From a virus: DNA of 35,401 nucleotides. Position numbers and translations under genes: made by a program. This document shows positions 17,173 through 24,015 of this stretch, piece after piece; the first letter of the stretch is position 1, and each line of letters starts with the position of its first letter. Under the pieces are notes generated by a model. It was not told where the DNA came from. It saw nothing but the letters and a program-made list of their open reading frames with translations, and did not search any database. The DNA is taken from IMG/VR virus record IMGVR_UViG_3300044729_002317, positions 1-35,401 of that record; one strand, written 5' to 3'.

Positions 17173-18486
17173 TTACCCGTTTTGAGGACCGTAAAGACCG
17201 TAACTATCACGAATTAATTTTACACTTGTAACCATTTGATTTCCTTCAAAATGATGTCTCAATTCTTTAATCAAATAATTTCCACTTTGCTCATCATCTG
17301 CTTCTTTATTATCCGATCTTTTGATTCTCGGAAATTGTGCATTTATAATATCTCCAACTTTCAGTTTTATATTACAAGGTATAACCATATTTAGTGCTTG
17401 AGTGAATAATAAATTATATCTAGAATAAGACATTGACATATCCGCACCACTTCTTGACTTGCCACTTACAGTTCCATCATTATTCAAATTTCCTCTATCA
17501 GAAATTTTAAACATAATTCTACTAATACTATCTCCAAATTCATCAGAAACAGCAATATTCTTAGACGCACCTAGTTTATTTTTAACTTGGTCTTTCACTG
17601 TGTATTTGTAAATATCTAAAGTGTTTGAATACAAATCAAAATAATATGTTTTATTTGAATACATACCAACTCTCAATGATTTCATCAAATCAATATTCTT
17701 TTCATACTTATAGTTTAAAATTCTAAAATTTGTTTCTACATTATTACTCTCAATGATTGGAGCATATTGATAATTATATATTGATTCCTTATCGGCACTA
17801 TTGTTTTGAATTTGAGTGCTTGAAACTAAACTATCAATACTTCTAAAATTAAACCCATCTTTGTTTTCATAGAATAAGAATCCTGCAGTTCCTTTTGCGA
17901 TTCCACTATTCTCTCCACCTGATGTTCCAGAGTTTTGACCATTTGCAGGAACTGCTTTTGGTCCCAACCAAGTCAAAGTATGAAATGGTTTTCTATTGTT
18001 TCCAATAAAAGAAAAATCATTTGATGTTCCTTCTATATTTTCACTCTTAAATTTTTTAGTTTTTAATACATCTTTTAAAATTTTAGTTACTGTAGTTTGA
18101 ATATTACCTGTATATTTTCTTTCACATCTGACAGTATCATTCGTCAAACCTTCACGAGAAACTAAGTGTAAAGTGAACATTTCACTTGACTTTTGTGCAT
18201 CAAGATTGCTAACCTTATAAACATAAAAAGCAGTATCACCGTCAAATAAAAATTCACCAAATGCAGTATCAACACTAATGGAAACTTTTTCTCCACCACG
18301 AATTGGTAAAAGATTAAACAAACTTGTACTATTAACTATTTGTGCAGTAGCAGTTATACAAGGAGATAAAATATCCTCAAAGTAATCAAAAAACAATAAT
18401 GAATTGGTAATATCAATTTTTTTACTACCATCTAATGATTGTATGATAAAATAATTTGGTTTAAATGCTGCTACAGATTGTGACAT
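17173..18486 (-). CDS. 27: Baseplate central hub protein, gp27-like
   Basis: 437 residues; ATG overlaps the upstream stop by 1 nt (TAATG). N-terminal strands (ITNSLLFFDYFEDILSPC ... FNLLPIRGGEKVSISV ... FYVYKVSN) and a later FLFYENKDGFNFRSIDSLV segment have the order expected of T4 gp27/gpD-type hub proteins, which form the trimeric ring around gp5. The C-terminus has a long strand pair ending in LKVGDIINAQFPRI and GNYLIKELRHHF, also typical of hub proteins. Placement next to gp5 agrees. Length is slightly above T4 gp27 (about 390). The assignment is by pattern, so moderate. Confidence 0.6.
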   Translation of the reverse strand: MSQSVAAFKPNYFIIQSLDGSKKIDITNSLLFFDYFEDILSPCITATAQIVNSTSLFNLLPIRGGEKVSISVDTAFGEFLFDGDTAFYVYKVSNLDAQKSSEMFTLHLVSREGLTNDTVRCERKYTGNIQTTVTKILKDVLKTKKFKSENIEGTSNDFSFIGNNRKPFHTLTWLGPKAVPANGQNSGTSGGENSGIAKGTAGFLFYENKDGFNFRSIDSLVSSTQIQNNSADKESIYNYQYAPIIESNNVETNFRILNYKYEKNIDLMKSLRVGMYSNKTYYFDLYSNTLDIYKYTVKDQVKNKLGASKNIAVSDEFGDSISRIMFKISDRGNLNNDGTVSGKSRSGADMSMSYSRYNLLFTQALNMVIPCNIKLKVGDIINAQFPRIKRSDNKEADDEQSGNYLIKELRHHFEGNQMVTSVKLIRDSYGLYGPQNG

Positions 18487-20582
18487 TAGCTTGCTGACAG
18501 ATTAGTAAGTAACATAGTCTTCATAAGACTATTTACCAGTTGTCCTTCATCTGGACCAGGAAGAATTACAGTTCCTCCACCACCACCTCCAACTGGAATA
18601 AAGACTGGTTTTTGTTGTCCTCCTCCACCTTGAGGACTCATCATCATTGGTATAATTGTTGTAACCTGTTGTAGTTGATTATAAGAAGGGTATTGTTGGA
18701 GATTTTGAATCATTCCAGATTGATATGCAGCAATTGCCTCTGGAGTTAAATCTGGACCTCCTATTCCAGGTCTCTTTGAAGCATCCATTATTGCTTTAAT
18801 TCTGGAAAGATTTGAATTTGGATCACTTGCTTCATTTGCAATAATAGATTTATGGTACATTACATTTAATTTCTGTGCTTTTGCTAATTTTTCAACCAAT
18901 TCAGCAGTTTTTAAATTATATTCCTTTTCTCCAGGAGCACCAGTTTCACCTTTTGTTACATCAGCGTGTCCTGCAAAAATATGATATGCACGTTTAGGGT
19001 CTTTCATCATTGCTTCAACTATTCTTTTTGCATTTGCTTCAGCACCTAATGCCATATCTGACTCTAGAATATTTCCACCTCTATTTGTAACACCCAATCC
19101 TCCTCTAAAATTTTTACCATAAGTCCCGAAACTAGAAACAAGTGCTTGAGAAACAGCAGTATCTGGACTGGTATTGCTTGGGATTAATCCTGTCTTTTGT
19201 CCTTTTGCATTTGGGTCTGCGTGTAATTCTAAAACAAAAGGATTAGAACCTGCTCCCGAAACTCCTGCCTTTGGTTTGACTTTTACATTGCCACCGAATC
19301 TAAAATACTTATCTCCCTCACTTGTAGGTATTTCTAATTTTTTACTTCCTTGTCTAACTTCAAAATGAACGTGAGGTCCCGTAGAATTTCCTGTGCTTCC
19401 TACATTTCCAATTACAGTTCCAGGTTCTATTTGTTGTCCTTCTTTGACTGATATTTTACTTAAGTGCCCATAAAAACTACTAGAACCACCAGGATGTGCA
19501 ATTTGTACAGCATATCCATACCCACCATCATTAAATTGTGCGTATGTTACTTGACCAGGTTGAATCACACTTACTGGTGTTCCTTCCGTAATAGCATAAT
19601 CAACACCACTATGAATTCTTCCCCATCTCCAACCATAAGGAGATGAAGTATATTTGCTGGGCATTTGACCACCTTCAGCAGTCATATCTGGAAGTTCTCC
19701 TGGAATTTCAGGAGCATCTGGAATTGCATCTGGGTCTAAACCGTAATCCAACATCATTTCATCAGAACCAGCAGCAGCTGCGGCACCATTTACCACAGAA
19801 GCAAATGACTTATAGACAAAGTTTTCAAACTTTCCTACAGAGTCACTAAATCTGTTTATTACATCACCAAATCCACTTTCTTGAACTGATGCCTTTTGTT
19901 GTTGTTCTTGTGCCTTTAGTTTTTCTTCAACTTTTCCAGACACACCTCCAGCACCACCAGTTGCAAGTTCATATGCTCTATCTGCGGTGTAACCACCCAA
20001 AAATCCACCTGCCATACTTCCAATTACAAAACCAAGCCCAGGTATTGGAATTAGTGCTTGCCCAATGGCACCACCAAGTAATGAACCAGCAAGATTGCCC
20101 ACTGCTCCCGATGCTGCTTGACCTGTGCTTTCTCCCTCTGCCAATCCCTGAGCAAAATCCAATCCAGAAAAAACTGCATTCAAAATACCTACAGATTTGA
20201 GTCCTCCAAATTGTAACTTAGAACCAGAAACTATTGGTTTTGGTGGTCTCAATCCTCTTGTATTTTGAGGAGCACCCATTTTTCCTCTTGGAGGGAACAT
20301 ATTACCAAGAAAACCAGCAACATCAAGTGCCCCTCCAAGTAAAGATGATAATAAATTTCCAGGAGAACCAAAACTTGAAGCAATGTTTAAGTTCGCAAGT
20401 TCTTTAATTTTTCTTTTTTCAGGTAATTTTATTCTATTAATTTCTTTATTTTGAGTGTTTAAAAACTTAGAGAAATCAACAACATCTCTCTGAATTCCTT
20501 TTAGTCTTCTTGAGGAATCTCCACTAAAAGAAACTATGTTATTGGAAGCAGAAACTAAAGGAGAAGAAAGTACTTTTTTCAT
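18486..20582 (-). CDS. Tail/hub protein with M23 (LytM) endopeptidase domain
   Basis: 698 residues; ATG overlaps the upstream stop by 1 nt (TAATG). Residues about 60-230 are Gly/Ala-rich and hydrophobic (SLLGGALDVAGFLGNMF; GNLAGSLLGGAIGQALI), possibly membrane-active. Residues about 310-430 form an M23 metallopeptidase: SPYGWRWGRIHSGVDYA (zinc His and Asp), FYGHLS and GPHVHFEV (second His pair). Such domains cut peptidoglycan cross-bridges. Residues about 445-590 hold another conserved-looking block (FVLELHADPNAKG ... HIFAGHADVTKGETGAPGEK ... IIANEASDPNSNLSR) somewhat like an amidase but not assigned. The end is Gly/Pro-rich. It probably acts at the tail tip during DNA entry. Confidence 0.8.
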   Translation of the reverse strand: MKKVLSSPLVSASNNIVSFSGDSSRRLKGIQRDVVDFSKFLNTQNKEINRIKLPEKRKIKELANLNIASSFGSPGNLLSSLLGGALDVAGFLGNMFPPRGKMGAPQNTRGLRPPKPIVSGSKLQFGGLKSVGILNAVFSGLDFAQGLAEGESTGQAASGAVGNLAGSLLGGAIGQALIPIPGLGFVIGSMAGGFLGGYTADRAYELATGGAGGVSGKVEEKLKAQEQQQKASVQESGFGDVINRFSDSVGKFENFVYKSFASVVNGAAAAAGSDEMMLDYGLDPDAIPDAPEIPGELPDMTAEGGQMPSKYTSSPYGWRWGRIHSGVDYAITEGTPVSVIQPGQVTYAQFNDGGYGYAVQIAHPGGSSSFYGHLSKISVKEGQQIEPGTVIGNVGSTGNSTGPHVHFEVRQGSKKLEIPTSEGDKYFRFGGNVKVKPKAGVSGAGSNPFVLELHADPNAKGQKTGLIPSNTSPDTAVSQALVSSFGTYGKNFRGGLGVTNRGGNILESDMALGAEANAKRIVEAMMKDPKRAYHIFAGHADVTKGETGAPGEKEYNLKTAELVEKLAKAQKLNVMYHKSIIANEASDPNSNLSRIKAIMDASKRPGIGGPDLTPEAIAAYQSGMIQNLQQYPSYNQLQQVTTIIPMMMSPQGGGGQQKPVFIPVGGGGGGTVILPGPDEGQLVNSLMKTMLLTNLSAS

Positions 20583-22357
20583 TATCCGTCTACTATATTA
20601 TAAACCATTCTTGAATATAAAACTAAAAAATTATCAGTGTTTGCAGAAGGTAATAATGGAACTGATGGACCATTTTTTTGAGTTGATGGTGGTGCAGAAA
20701 TACCTCCTCCACCACCTTGAGATTGTTGAGGCATTGCACCAGACAAATCTATTGGTACAATATTTGTTTGTGATTGTGCTGCTGTTTGAGCAACTTGAGA
20801 AACACCTGTTGCTAAGTTGTTGTATTCTTCTAATTTTAATTTTCCAGCCTTATATGCTGCAGCATATTCTTTAGGCAATTCCTCATAACTACCTCCTATT
20901 CCTGGTTTTGGTTTATATGTTTTTTCCAATCCTGGAGTCAATTTTTTATACCATTCTCCAGTTTTAACTGATCCATATTCTGGATCAGGACCCCCAGAAT
21001 AACCACGATCAGTTCTATAAACAATATACTTATCTCTAAGTAATTGTGATATTTTAGCACCAGAATAACCTTGAGTGGTTAATGCTTCAGGAACTCCAGC
21101 ACCTCTCGTCTTAATTTCATTTGCAGAAAATCTTGCTTGGAATCTCAATCCCTCAGCAGTTTCTTTTATTTGACCTTTGGTCTCATCCCAAACCCCAGCC
21201 TTTTTGGCCTGATCGATTAAAGCAGTTCTTCTATCTTGATTCCAACTAAACATACCAGTATTAGGAATTTTTGCAGAAGGATCAGTATGAGTTCCAAACA
21301 AGTTTTTATTGTCCATCCCACCTTCTCTGCCAATTTCAGCAATTAATCTTTTTGCTCCCTCATCAGTATATCCAAGATTTCTATATTCATCATATAAAAC
21401 TGCTGATTTGCCTGCCATAGTAGATATATCACCACTTTTCAAATTACTATAATCCACTGGAGATCCAGGACCAGGACCTCCAGGACCAGGACCTCCAGGA
21501 CTTCCCCCACCACCTCCTGCACCACCACCAGGAGGTTTGGAAGGACCCTTTCCAATACCAATCATTGTATTAATTGCTGTAATAAATCTTTCTATTGCAG
21601 AACTAAACGTTGATATGATGTCTCCACCATCTCCAGGTTGAAGCATTCCTGCTCTAATTTCATCAACATTAGAAAGAGCATTCACTGTGCCAGCACCAAC
21701 AGCACCCAATCCAAGAGCACCAGCACCAAGGGCAAGCATTTTGCCTCTTCCCTTGAACATATTACCAAGTCCTCGTGGTGCGCTCTTTCTGACACCACCC
21801 ATGGGAACATCAACATCAATGTCAATTCCACCTCCACCACCTGGAGATGCTTTTGGAAGATTTGATAATTGTTGTACTATTTTTACAATGACCTGACGAA
21901 TCAATTTTGCAACTTCAAAACTTTCTGTAAATGATTTAGAAAGATTTTTTAAATTGTCACTTATTCTATTCACAAATTTTTTGTTGCCAAAAAACTGAAT
22001 GAATTGTATTACACTCTTATAGGTACTTAAAAACTTACTTAGAATGCCGGTTGGTTTCGCAGAATCAACATCAGATACTCTTTTCTTATAATCTGTAGTG
22101 AAACTTTGAAGAGTATTATTTAAAGTGCTTGTTATATTGTTTGTAATATTTGTAGAAATAGTACTTACGATTGAATCTACTGAAGATGGGACTGGTTTTG
22201 CAGTCCCTCTTTGAAATCCTACTATTTTATTTGCAGCAGAAGCAATTGAAGATGTTCCAAGAAAAGAACCACCAGAAATAAAATTTTTGGCGAGTTGTTG
22301 GTTTGTATTCTGCTTACCTACTATTCTTTCTGGGTTCAGAACCGAACCTATTACCAT
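20582..22357 (-). CDS. Tail protein with phage tail-lysozyme domain
   Basis: 591 residues, ATG start. Residues about 50-180 are helical (coiled, tape-measure-like). Residues about 200-225 are a hydrophobic Gly/Ala stretch (MLALGAGALGLGAVGAG), then a poly-Gly/Pro linker near 275-305. Residues about 315-415 (LYDEYRNLGYTDEGAKRLIA, EIGREGG, FSWNQDRRTALIDQAKKAG, FQARFSANEIK) follow the layout of the phage tail-lysozyme family, with the likely catalytic Glu near residue 342. The role would be local cell-wall hydrolysis from the tail. It sits where T4 has genes 27-29, and a tape-measure function is possible but unproven. A late promoter motif lies 21 nt upstream. Confidence 0.7.
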   Translation of the reverse strand: MVIGSVLNPERIVGKQNTNQQLAKNFISGGSFLGTSSIASAANKIVGFQRGTAKPVPSSVDSIVSTISTNITNNITSTLNNTLQSFTTDYKKRVSDVDSAKPTGILSKFLSTYKSVIQFIQFFGNKKFVNRISDNLKNLSKSFTESFEVAKLIRQVIVKIVQQLSNLPKASPGGGGGIDIDVDVPMGGVRKSAPRGLGNMFKGRGKMLALGAGALGLGAVGAGTVNALSNVDEIRAGMLQPGDGGDIISTFSSAIERFITAINTMIGIGKGPSKPPGGGAGGGGGSPGGPGPGGPGPGSPVDYSNLKSGDISTMAGKSAVLYDEYRNLGYTDEGAKRLIAEIGREGGMDNKNLFGTHTDPSAKIPNTGMFSWNQDRRTALIDQAKKAGVWDETKGQIKETAEGLRFQARFSANEIKTRGAGVPEALTTQGYSGAKISQLLRDKYIVYRTDRGYSGGPDPEYGSVKTGEWYKKLTPGLEKTYKPKPGIGGSYEELPKEYAAAYKAGKLKLEEYNNLATGVSQVAQTAAQSQTNIVPIDLSGAMPQQSQGGGGGISAPPSTQKNGPSVPLLPSANTDNFLVLYSRMVYNIVDG

Positions 22358-22386: not shown

Positions 22387-22555
22387 GAGCATTTTGTTGT
22401 TTTAGTTTCTCATCTTCAATATGTTGTTGGAGAAGTGCTAAGTAAATATCTCTTTCCCAAGGCATCATATTTTCAACATCCCTAATCGGCCATTTATGAA
22501 ATTGAAGTAATGCAAAATTAATTCTAAAGTATGACTCCAATTCCATATAAGCCAT
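22382..22555 (-). CDS. 51: gp51-like baseplate hub assembly protein / T-type tail chaperone
   Basis: 57 residues, ATG at 22555, 2 nt after the gp26 stop. It begins MAYMELESYFRINFALLQFH and contains IRDVENMMPWERDIYLALL, then an acidic/Gln-rich helix. The MPWER.IY.xxL motif is characteristic of small tail assembly chaperone C-terminal parts (as in lambda GT-type proteins) and of the short gp51 of marine T4-like phages. No Shine-Dalgarno stands at usable distance from the ATG: the only purine block (GGAGGGG) is 23 nt upstream. The frame is exactly -1 relative to gp26, and a slippery heptamer lies just before the gp26 stop, so it may be made largely as a gp26-gp51 fusion of about 301 residues. 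Confidence 0.75.
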   Translation of the reverse strand: MAYMELESYFRINFALLQFHKWPIRDVENMMPWERDIYLALLQQHIEDEKLKQQNAQ

Positions 22556-22557
22556 AC

Positions 22558-22585
22558 TCAACCGAAAAAAGATGTTAACCCCTCC
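22558..22585 (-). promoter_or_regulatory. Putative programmed -1 frameshift site joining gp26 to gp51
   Basis: On the minus strand GGAGGGG (22585-22579) is followed by 8 nt, then T TTT TTC (22570-22564) with TTT and TTC as in-frame gp26 codons, then GGT and the TGA stop (22560-22558). A -1 slip continues CGG TTG AGT ATG GCT, entering gp51 in frame. Upstream SD-like element plus slippery heptamer is the layout of the E. coli dnaX signal. Confidence 0.65.
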
Positions 22586-23286
22586 AACGTAACTTCACTT
22601 TCCACTCCAGTCTTTGGATTCTTAACTTTTACTTTGTGTGCAAGTTTTGGCATTGTATTAAAAAAGTTTTCAACCTGTTTGAATTGATTTGAATCAAGTG
22701 TTTCAATCCAAGAAACTAATTCTTTTTTAGTACAATCAGATGCTGCCCAACTTTCTTCTTCATTAAAGATCATATCAATACAAGAAGCAATAATATCTAA
22801 AGATTTTTCAATATTTGATGTACTTTGCTCTGTGTTAAAATCAAAATTATTTTTAATAAACTGGTCTAAAGATGGATACTTCATTCTTAAAACTAAAGAA
22901 CTATCAAGTTTAATATCCGTGCTATGATTTTCTTCTTTTTGAACTTGAATCTCATCAATATAAATTGTGACTGGAACTTGAGTTTCCATATCATCACCAC
23001 AAGTAATAATTAATTCAATAGACTCACCAACAGATTTTGAACGAAGGTTTAAGAACAAATATTCAATATCAAAAGTTGGAAGTTCTTCTACTTTAATTGC
23101 TTTTGTTAAAATACAATCTTTTAATACTTGCTTGATTGCATTTGTAATTTCTTTTGTATCTTGACTTTCAAGAGCAAGAATTAATATCTTTTCTTCTTTG
23201 ACTAGAAATGGTCTGTATTTAATTGTTTTCCCAGTTGATGGCAAAACCAATTCATACGTTGGTGTAGAAATCTTAGGTAATGGCAT
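22558..23286 (-). CDS. 26: Baseplate hub subunit gp26
   Basis: 242 residues, ATG start. The N-terminus (PTYELVLPSTGKTIKYRPFL, then VKEEKILILALES) is the hallmark of the T4 gp26 baseplate family, followed by YLFLNLRSKSVGESIEL and a Cys-containing strand. In T4, gp26 is needed for hub assembly. The last codons are ACA TCT TTT TTC GGT TGA, containing a slippery heptamer that could send about a fraction of ribosomes into gp51. A late promoter motif lies 21 nt upstream, over the gp54 stop codon. Gene order gp54-gp26-gp51 on this strand agrees with a hub operon. Confidence 0.85.
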   Translation of the reverse strand: MPLPKISTPTYELVLPSTGKTIKYRPFLVKEEKILILALESQDTKEITNAIKQVLKDCILTKAIKVEELPTFDIEYLFLNLRSKSVGESIELIITCGDDMETQVPVTIYIDEIQVQKEENHSTDIKLDSSLVLRMKYPSLDQFIKNNFDFNTEQSTSNIEKSLDIIASCIDMIFNEEESWAASDCTKKELVSWIETLDSNQFKQVENFFNTMPKLAHKVKVKNPKTGVESEVTLEGLTSFFG

Positions 23287-23307: not shown

Positions 23308-23315
23308 TATTTATT
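23308..23315 (-). promoter_or_regulatory. T4-type late promoter AATAAATA before gp26
   Basis: Motif overlaps the gp54 TAA stop (23311-23313); 21 nt separate it from the gp26 ATG at 23286. Confidence 0.5.
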
Positions 23316-24015
23316 TACTCCTCGTTTTATGTTTTTCAATTACATAACGGGAGTAACTAAAGGTAACTATTGTTTTAGTGATTGTACTTCCTTCATAAGT
23401 CACTGGCATTGCTGCTATGTTTGTAGGGAAAGCATCAATCAAACGATAAGTTATTCTTGGCACATCATTAGTTCTATTCAAATCTCTTTCAAATTTTACA
23501 ATTGATATAATTCTCTTATATGTGTCGGGATATTTAAGTCTAAAAAAATCTGGACGATTTTTTGCGTCTCCCTGTCCCCTTGAATTTGCTTTAACTTCTC
23601 CAGCATCTGTATAAACAGGATTGATATAATTCATCCATTCTTCAAAAAGACGAATGAGTTTATAATCATAATCAACATAAAATGTCATTGTAACATCTGG
23701 ATAAACTCTTTTAGTTGGAAACCTCTCTATCACTCCTTGACGTGACCCAATCTCTTCCGTGACATCAAAGGTTGCGCCAGGAAGTGAAGTCTCCGCACAA
23801 TAAAAGTCAAATTTTGAAAATTCTCCATCACTTGTAATTCCTGCATCTGCCAACCAATTCATCAATAAATCACCATCACCACGATTAGTCAAGTGCAATG
23901 ATACCTTAAATTGACTTGTAAGGGATAATTTACCAAAGATTTCTAATGCTTCATCTGTTGTCTTATACAAAAAACCAACTTCAGGTTGTCCTGCTCCTGG
24001 TCCTCTTGATGCCAT
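23311..24015 (-). CDS. 54: Baseplate tail-tube initiator, gp54-like
   Basis: 234 residues, ATG start. Central motifs FYCAETSLPGATFDVTEEIG and TMTFYVDYDYKLIRLFEEWM, then FSYSRYVIE near the end, are the conserved pattern of T4-type tail-tube-fold proteins (gp19/gp54 relatives). The adjacency to gp26 and the divergent gp48 favours gp54, the protein that caps the hub and nucleates the tube. The tube protein gp19 itself is an alternative of the same fold. Only 31 nt separate its start from the divergent gp4 gene, and no clear Shine-Dalgarno is seen. Confidence 0.7.
   Translation of the reverse strand: MASRGPGAGQPEVGFLYKTTDEALEIFGKLSLTSQFKVSLHLTNRGDGDLLMNWLADAGITSDGEFSKFDFYCAETSLPGATFDVTEEIGSRQGVIERFPTKRVYPDVTMTFYVDYDYKLIRLFEEWMNYINPVYTDAGEVKANSRGQGDAKNRPDFFRLKYPDTYKRIISIVKFERDLNRTNDVPRITYRLIDAFPTNIAAMPVTYEGSTITKTIVTFSYSRYVIEKHKTRSK

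Follow-up and report, generated by a model that had tools for sequence, protein, structure and literature searches.

A very probable programmed -1 frameshift site joining gp26 to gp51 in marine T4-like phages

Does the junction of gp26 and gp51 in a T4-like phage hold two separate genes, or one gene that is read in two ways? The question arises from a stretch of viral DNA of 35,401 nucleotides (IMG/VR record IMGVR_UViG_3300044729_002317, positions 1 to 35,401), here called the window, in which the small gp51 frame opens in the -1 phase at the end of gp26. Long-tailed phages are said to share a conserved frameshift in the genes of their tail assembly chaperones (TACs), the lambda chaperones gpG and gpGT being reportedly known from work by Levin in 1993 and Xu in 2004. 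We conclude that the gp26/gp51 junction is very probably a programmed -1 frameshift site, one that would make a short TAC-N (242 aa) and a long TAC-NC (301 aa).

On the minus strand, gp26 ends GAA GTT ACG TTG GAG GGG TTA ACA TCT TTT TTC GGT TGA GT ATG GCT (Table 1). A slip of one base back at the heptamer T TTT TTC leads to the junction peptide S F F R L S M A Y M E L E and onward without a stop (...SFF-RLSMAYMELESYF...), so that gp26 residues 1-241 and 60 further residues form a fusion of 301 aa. The junction has both marks of a programmed -1 site: a zero-frame X XXY YYZ, and a -1 frame that stays open beyond the stop. The original prediction had described this arrangement, and its particulars hold: the heptamer lies in the right phase at 22570-22564; the -1 path enters the 57-codon gp51 frame stop-free and gives the expected length of about 301 aa (241 + 60); and GGAGGGG stands upstream, 8 nt from the heptamer and 23 nt from the gp51 ATG. 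That ATG is at 22555 and gives a gp51 of 57 aa; the ORF list starts it at an upstream in-frame TTG, for 59 aa. Since the ATG follows close behind the gp26 stop (TGAGTATG), a separate gp51 made by re-initiation is also possible in the window. The heptamer taken alone is weak evidence, because 39 chosen long ORFs of the window hold 8 in-frame T6N heptamers; the evidence is its conservation.

Table 1. Features of the gp26/gp51 junction and its neighbourhood, in window coordinates
Feature	Position	Strand	Basis
Tail tube gene, immediately upstream of gp26	23311..24015	-	Phage_TTP_2 E 1e-16; phrog_45 tail tube
gp26, 242 aa, PF12322 T4_baseplate	22558..23286	-	Pfam E 1.7e-72; phrog_150 E 1.7e-78
SD-like block GGAGGGG, candidate upstream stimulator	22579..22585	-	sequence; anti-SD pairing against synonymous null
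Slippery heptamer T TTT TTC	22564..22570	-	X XXY YYZ in zero frame, read in sequence
gp26 stop TGA, bypassed by a -1 shift	22558..22560	-	sequence
-1 frame extension, 60 codons + stop; gp51 is its last 57 codons	22382..22564	-	open frame; phrog_634
Predicted hairpin, 5' arm (11 bp), starting 4 nt after the heptamer	22549..22559	-	fold prediction
Predicted hairpin, 3' arm (11 bp)	22527..22537	-	fold prediction
591-aa ORF in tape-measure position	20582..22357	-	assignment from position only

We gathered 274 loci to set beside the window: 258 from IMG/VR, among the matches listed, and 16 from named phages. Scans of IMG/VR with the gp26 of BUCT-ZZ01 and of K476 gave no usable loci. A gp26 ORF was found in 269 of the 275 (six had no match), and 266 reach at least 150 nt past its stop (three had short ends). 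The loci were collected by similarity, among the matches listed, and are mutually related, so the p-values of the codon-usage and SD-pairing tests overstate independence, those for codons being descriptive only. A zero-frame T6N heptamer, its XXY codon 2-5 codons before the stop, is present in 244/266 loci among the matches listed, as TTTTTTC (228), TTTTTTT (8) or TTTTTTA (8). By source, it occurs in 231/249 IMG/VR loci (among the matches listed), in 12/16 named phages and in the window; dereplication at 90% leaves it in 178 of 186 loci, again among the matches listed. It is missing from 22 loci (among the matches listed): T4, Vibrio phage K476 and 20 of Ackermannviridae type. The original prediction had proposed aligning many such junctions, and among the matches listed the heptamer and the -1 phase are kept together in those 244.

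Codon choice at the site is equally constrained. Phe-Phe is written TTT TTC in 163/171 loci, against 16/174 Phe-Phe pairs elsewhere in the same genes. This difference argues against a reading that we judge very unlikely, in which the ATG after the gp26 stop serves as a start, through re-initiation or translational coupling, for a separate gp51 protein, and the T-run is just a pair of conserved Phe codons. A T precedes the site in 178/178 loci while the residue it belongs to varies (S, D, N, A, T or G), the codon always ending in T (AGT, TCT, GAT, AAT, GCT, ACT or GGT); this constancy is partly circular, because T6 was required for entry to the 178, yet only 8/186 loci lack T6. In 7 loci the second residue of the site is Leu (TTA), and T6 is kept. 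The site is found in phages of Caulobacter, Sinorhizobium, Ochrobactrum, Pseudomonas, Stenotrophomonas, Aeromonas, Vibrio and cyanobacteria, and the heptamer-bearing phages of these hosts have a gp26 that is 22-39% identical to that of phiM12.

Could shared ancestry or base composition have preserved the T-run, the SD-like block and the hairpin described below without any function? The relatedness of the loci, with its effect on p-values, leans that way, as does the fact that Phe is TTT in 71% of background codons. Three observations make this explanation extremely improbable: the residue and codon family before the heptamer change while the T stays; the heptamer recurs across these diverse hosts at the gp26 identities just given; and synonymous nulls and control regions of the same genes show little or no effect.

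The -1 frame itself bears on the choice between fusion and re-initiation. In the 244 heptamer loci it runs on for 53-66 codons beyond the gp26 stop before it closes; across all 266 loci it is open for at least 49 codons, and the longest stretch, 132 codons, belongs to T4, where it is gp25. In 104/244 loci including the window, the fourth -1 codon past the heptamer is an ATG that adjoins the gp26 stop, as re-initiation would have it. Against re-initiation, the first -1-frame ATG comes at codon 10 or later in 119/244 loci, and at codon 33 or later in 23/244. Even when ATG, GTG and TTG are all counted, the first start lies at codon 9 or beyond in 71 of the 178 dereplicated loci and at codon 13 or beyond in 40. 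The consensus from the slip onward reads R-I-A-L-F-H-E-x-L-E-x-Y-Y. Where no early ATG exists, only a frameshift or an unusual start codon could yield these conserved early residues. In the 72 dereplicated loci without an early ATG, codons 3-9 differ most at the third position (0.40, 0.27 and 0.63 at codon positions 1, 2 and 3), in favour of the frameshift; the differing pairs of the same codons are more often non-synonymous (8690) than synonymous (5015), which counts against it.

Upstream of the heptamer, the SD-like block is conserved beyond the needs of the protein. Over 178 loci, the 24 nt that precede the site pair with the 16S rRNA tail at a mean of -7.25 kcal/mol, against -5.58 for synonymous sequences (codon usage pooled over loci); in 712 control windows from the same genes there is no excess, the two means being -1.64 and -1.84. 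The best-pairing stretch ends 7-9 nt before the heptamer in 162/178 loci, and 109/178 carry an explicit GGAGG, AGGAG, GAGGG or AGGGG. A Glu-Gly motif is present in 151/178 loci, its Glu written GAG in 105 of those 151, against 1100/3802 elsewhere. These figures supply the conservation that the original prediction had sought for the block. Pairing is strongest where the gp51 ATG is near (-8.1 kcal/mol, 95 loci) and drops to -6.2 in the 51 loci whose first ATG comes late; some of the block's strength could therefore serve re-initiation. Against such a role, pairing just before the near ATG is almost nil, with a mean of -0.29 kcal/mol over the 95 loci.

A downstream hairpin, an element absent from the original prediction, completes the arrangement. 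In the window it is predicted to have 11 bp and an 11-nt loop, with the gp51 ATG inside its 5' arm; in P-HM1 it has 6 bp (GCCCUC/GAGGGC) and begins 5 nt after the heptamer. Folding from 3 nt past the heptamer gives -9.36 kcal/mol, compared with -2.97 for sequences that keep the -1 protein and again follow the pooled codon usage. The hairpin region has z < -2 in 70% of 178 loci (-4.2 in the window); two control regions have mean z of 0.14 and -0.46, with 3% and 11% of loci below -2. An uninterrupted stem of at least 8 bp is found in 47% of the loci, and one of at least 6 bp in 76%; for synonymous sequences the shares are 9% and 51%. The hairpin thus exceeds the needs of the protein code, a further point against re-initiation alone. 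Its exact form varies: a register of 11 bp with a 9-nt loop reaches at least 9/11 pairs in only 66/178 loci, and a form of 6 bp with a 6-nt loop fits fully in 22/178.

Covariation gave a mixed answer. In 87 loci selected by having ATG as the fourth -1 codon, and not by pairing, one 11-bp register pairs 83.9% of cells, compared with 29-49% when the partner is slid. The covariation score and the count of double-changed cells lie above all 500 shuffles of these 87 loci; the number of pairs with double changes is reached by 115/500 shuffles, and one slid register has more double-changed cells (36 against 24). As proof of the hairpin, covariation on its own failed in these two respects, pair number and slid register, and the synonymous-energy test is the better evidence. 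The SD-like block and the hairpin are both present and selected as sequence features, and both are candidate stimulators.

Both routes could also operate side by side, the frameshift giving the fusion and the internal ATG giving some free gp51 in lineages that keep it. We regard this as possible though rather unlikely. The ATG position is kept in 87/178 dereplicated loci, though others are without it; against this, the window ATG lies inside the 5' arm of the hairpin, such ATGs have nearly no SD, and a kept ATG may be just a conserved Met codon.

If the junction is a frameshift site, what would its products be? The closest annotated matches of the window are marine phages, such as Synechococcus phage S-SCSM2R (71%), and the 35,401-base record holds one PF12322 gene. 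The 59-residue gp51 ORF matches PHROG 634 (phrog_634, E 9.6e-24) and, weakly, positions 240-280 of PHROG 150 (E 1.1e-4), past the stretch matched by gp26. The tail tube gene adjoins upstream, and the 591-aa ORF downstream is by position a putative tape measure gene, which would give the order of a TAC locus (tail tube, TAC, tape measure). In Cr30 and phiM12 the ORFs after gp51, each past one more small ORF, are annotated as tape measure or similar. Homology searches with the 591-aa ORF did not show it to be a tape measure protein; they gave one short, weak match to its Cr30 counterpart (E 0.001). Directly after this presumed tape measure gene, at 18486-20582, the window encodes a 698-aa protein with an M23 peptidase domain (E 1.6e-29); the M23 peptidase domain is also present in several tape measure PHROGs.

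The fold of gp26 points in the same direction. In an AlphaFold2 model built from 56 sequences (pLDDT 88), the top three neighbours of 991 aligned chains are 3fgx (Z 7.8), 2ob9 (Z 7.7) and 3klu YqbN (Z 7.2), values in a range (best Z 7-8) that by the tool's own warning is common for models without a clear match. All three matches fall within gp26 residues 1-96, and the next chain has Z 4.9. In passages of PMC9603447, 3fgx, 2ob9 (the HK97 TAC) and 3klu are all termed tail assembly chaperones. A Foldseek search of the model against the PDB returned no E below 0.8 (2ob9, E 0.88-0.98), and it was only in the VIA comparison, which gave the Z scores, that the TACs stood out. Because such Z values are common without a clear match, and because Foldseek gives E 0.88, the TAC-like fold is supportive and not conclusive. 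A separate search of the gp26 profile against the sequences of solved structures gave nothing credible, the best E being 0.15, with helicase and caspase rows. Taken with the conserved junction and with the T4 homologues described next, the three TAC neighbours make gp26 and gp26-gp51 most likely TAC-N and TAC-NC.

T4 offers another view of the two forms. A short and a long form sharing their N-terminal part exist in the window as coding capacity (242 aa and 301 aa), and the T4 homologues have these two forms. T4 gp26 is the PF12322 domain alone. T4 gp51 has the domain in residues 1-201, and what comes after the domain can be aligned to the -1 extension (profile about 240-283); the alignment of T4 gp51 with PHROG 150 covers 13-280 of 282. 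In T4, gp51 lies on the strand opposite to gp26, and the T6N heptamer is missing. In the 15 named records searched whole, PF12322 occurs twice in T4 only and once in the other 14. Since gp51 combines domain and extension and T4 alone has two copies, the frameshift product corresponds to T4 gp51. T4 thus holds in separate genes, 26 and 51, the two forms that slippage could give the others. T4 gp26 and gp51 are given as hub assembly chaperones in the part of PMC3004832 that treats them, where gp51 is described as needed for assembly and absent from the final particle; the TAC reading would explain that combination. T4 gp26 (locus L081, 2492-3118) also has a weak match (E 9.4e-4) to PHROG 1140, 'baseplate hub distal subunit', which hints at a relation to gp28.

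A mechanism can be proposed from these parts. With the ribosome just downstream of it, the SD-like block would pair with the tail of the 16S rRNA; both tRNA-Phe could then re-pair one base back on U UUU UUC, and the hairpin 4 nt further on, 11 bp in the window, would hold the ribosome. Most ribosomes would stop and yield gp26, and a minority would shift and yield gp26-gp51. The two proteins would together coat the tape measure protein, and the C-terminal piece of the fusion would recruit tail tube subunits, as has been proposed for lambda gpG/gpGT. That slippage occurs, at whatever rate, and that the products act as chaperones is what we infer from the elements, their conservation and selection, the homology and the fold likeness.

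The likeness to lambda gpG/gpGT lies in a -1 shift near the end of the upstream gene that gives a short and a long form, with the tail tube gene upstream and the tape measure gene (presumed here) downstream. Lambda differs in its slip sequence, G GGA AAG instead of T TTT TTC, and its gpG is shorter than gp26; here an SD-like block and a hairpin are both present. In dnaX of E. coli an SD-like block, a heptamer and a hairpin a few nt downstream are combined as they are here; the heptamer is A AAA AAG, and the shift gives a product that is shorter, not longer. T4 shares with the window homologous proteins built as domain alone and domain plus extension, and differs in drawing them from two opposite-strand genes without T6N, where the window has one gene and a slip site. 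The TAC locus of Vandenendeviridae and Andersonviridae has a conserved -1 shift at a poly-T GTTTTT, and according to passages of PMC12846349 the -1 frame is open in every genome examined there; families and motif are different, and those passages mention neither SD-like block nor hairpin. The analogy with G and G-T drawn in the original prediction finds support in the heptamer and its phase and in the selection on block and hairpin, and further in the 119/244 loci without an early gp51 ATG, the T4 fusion, the PF12322 copy counts and a TAC likeness of moderate Z. The junction would then be a well-supported example of something that other tailed phages are already known to have.

The original prediction knew of no description for this group, and there it has to be corrected: in 2022 Vladimirov, Gautam and Davidson published a chaperone role for the T4-like genes, as cited in passages of PMC10885494 and PMC12846349. 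The PRFect paper (PMC10885494) cites that work for some T4-like phages having two genes, one short and one a longer fusion, in place of a frameshift, and the 2025 paper (PMC12846349) cites it for poly-T -1 signals in TAC-N genes of T4-like phages, each in the passage concerned. As so cited, the chaperone identity is known, and the frameshift in part of the T4-like phages is probably known too. Our literature search, with most subscription journals outside its scope, turned up no account of a frameshift between gp26 and gp51 in either cyanophages or T4-like phages, and for marine T4-like phages a cassette with both stimulators may not yet have been described.

Current annotation treats the two frames otherwise. 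In marine T4-like phages gp26 and gp51 are labelled as two proteins, 'baseplate hub' and 'hub assembly catalyst', and the shift is annotated in 0/12 of the named records that carry the heptamer (12/16). The gp51 frame has no annotated gene in Synechococcus phage ACG-2014d (L096, 3214-3402) or Ochrobactrum phage ORM_20 (L085, 3145-3340). Records with a gp26 match include 377 Synechococcus, 61 Cyanophage and 24 Prochlorococcus, with junctions checked in part of them; the TAC-N/TAC-NC reading would correct cyanophage annotation generally. It would also place frameshifting and gene duplication in one natural series, as substitutes for each other.

One evolutionary scenario, which we hold tentatively and at somewhat less than even chances, is that one ancestral cassette of three parts, the SD-like block, T TTT TTN and the hairpin, serves the chaperones of the tape measure in cyanophages and in alpha- and gammaproteobacterial T4-like phages; that the T4 lineage swapped it for gene duplication; and that Ackermannviridae drifted to a non-canonical junction that still needs the C-terminal piece. 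If this were true, replacement by duplication would explain T4's essential gp51.

The lineages without the heptamer show several kinds of junction. In Ackermannviridae it is A ATT TTC, with no canonical heptamer, and predicted folds of -0.7 to -2.5 kcal/mol give no stable hairpin. In 16 of the 20 Ackermannviridae-type loci, of Kuttervirus type (L086, L260-L274), the first 15 codons of the stretch inspected hold no ATG, and the C-terminal TAC piece lies in an open -1 frame; in the remaining four (L087, L257-L259) an ATG overlaps the gp26 stop. Vibrio phage K476 (L082, 3190-3405) has the junction CTT TTT GCG TAATG, with an overlapping ATG and no heptamer, followed by a diverged gp51-like ORF that matches phrog_9633 (E 1.4e-5).
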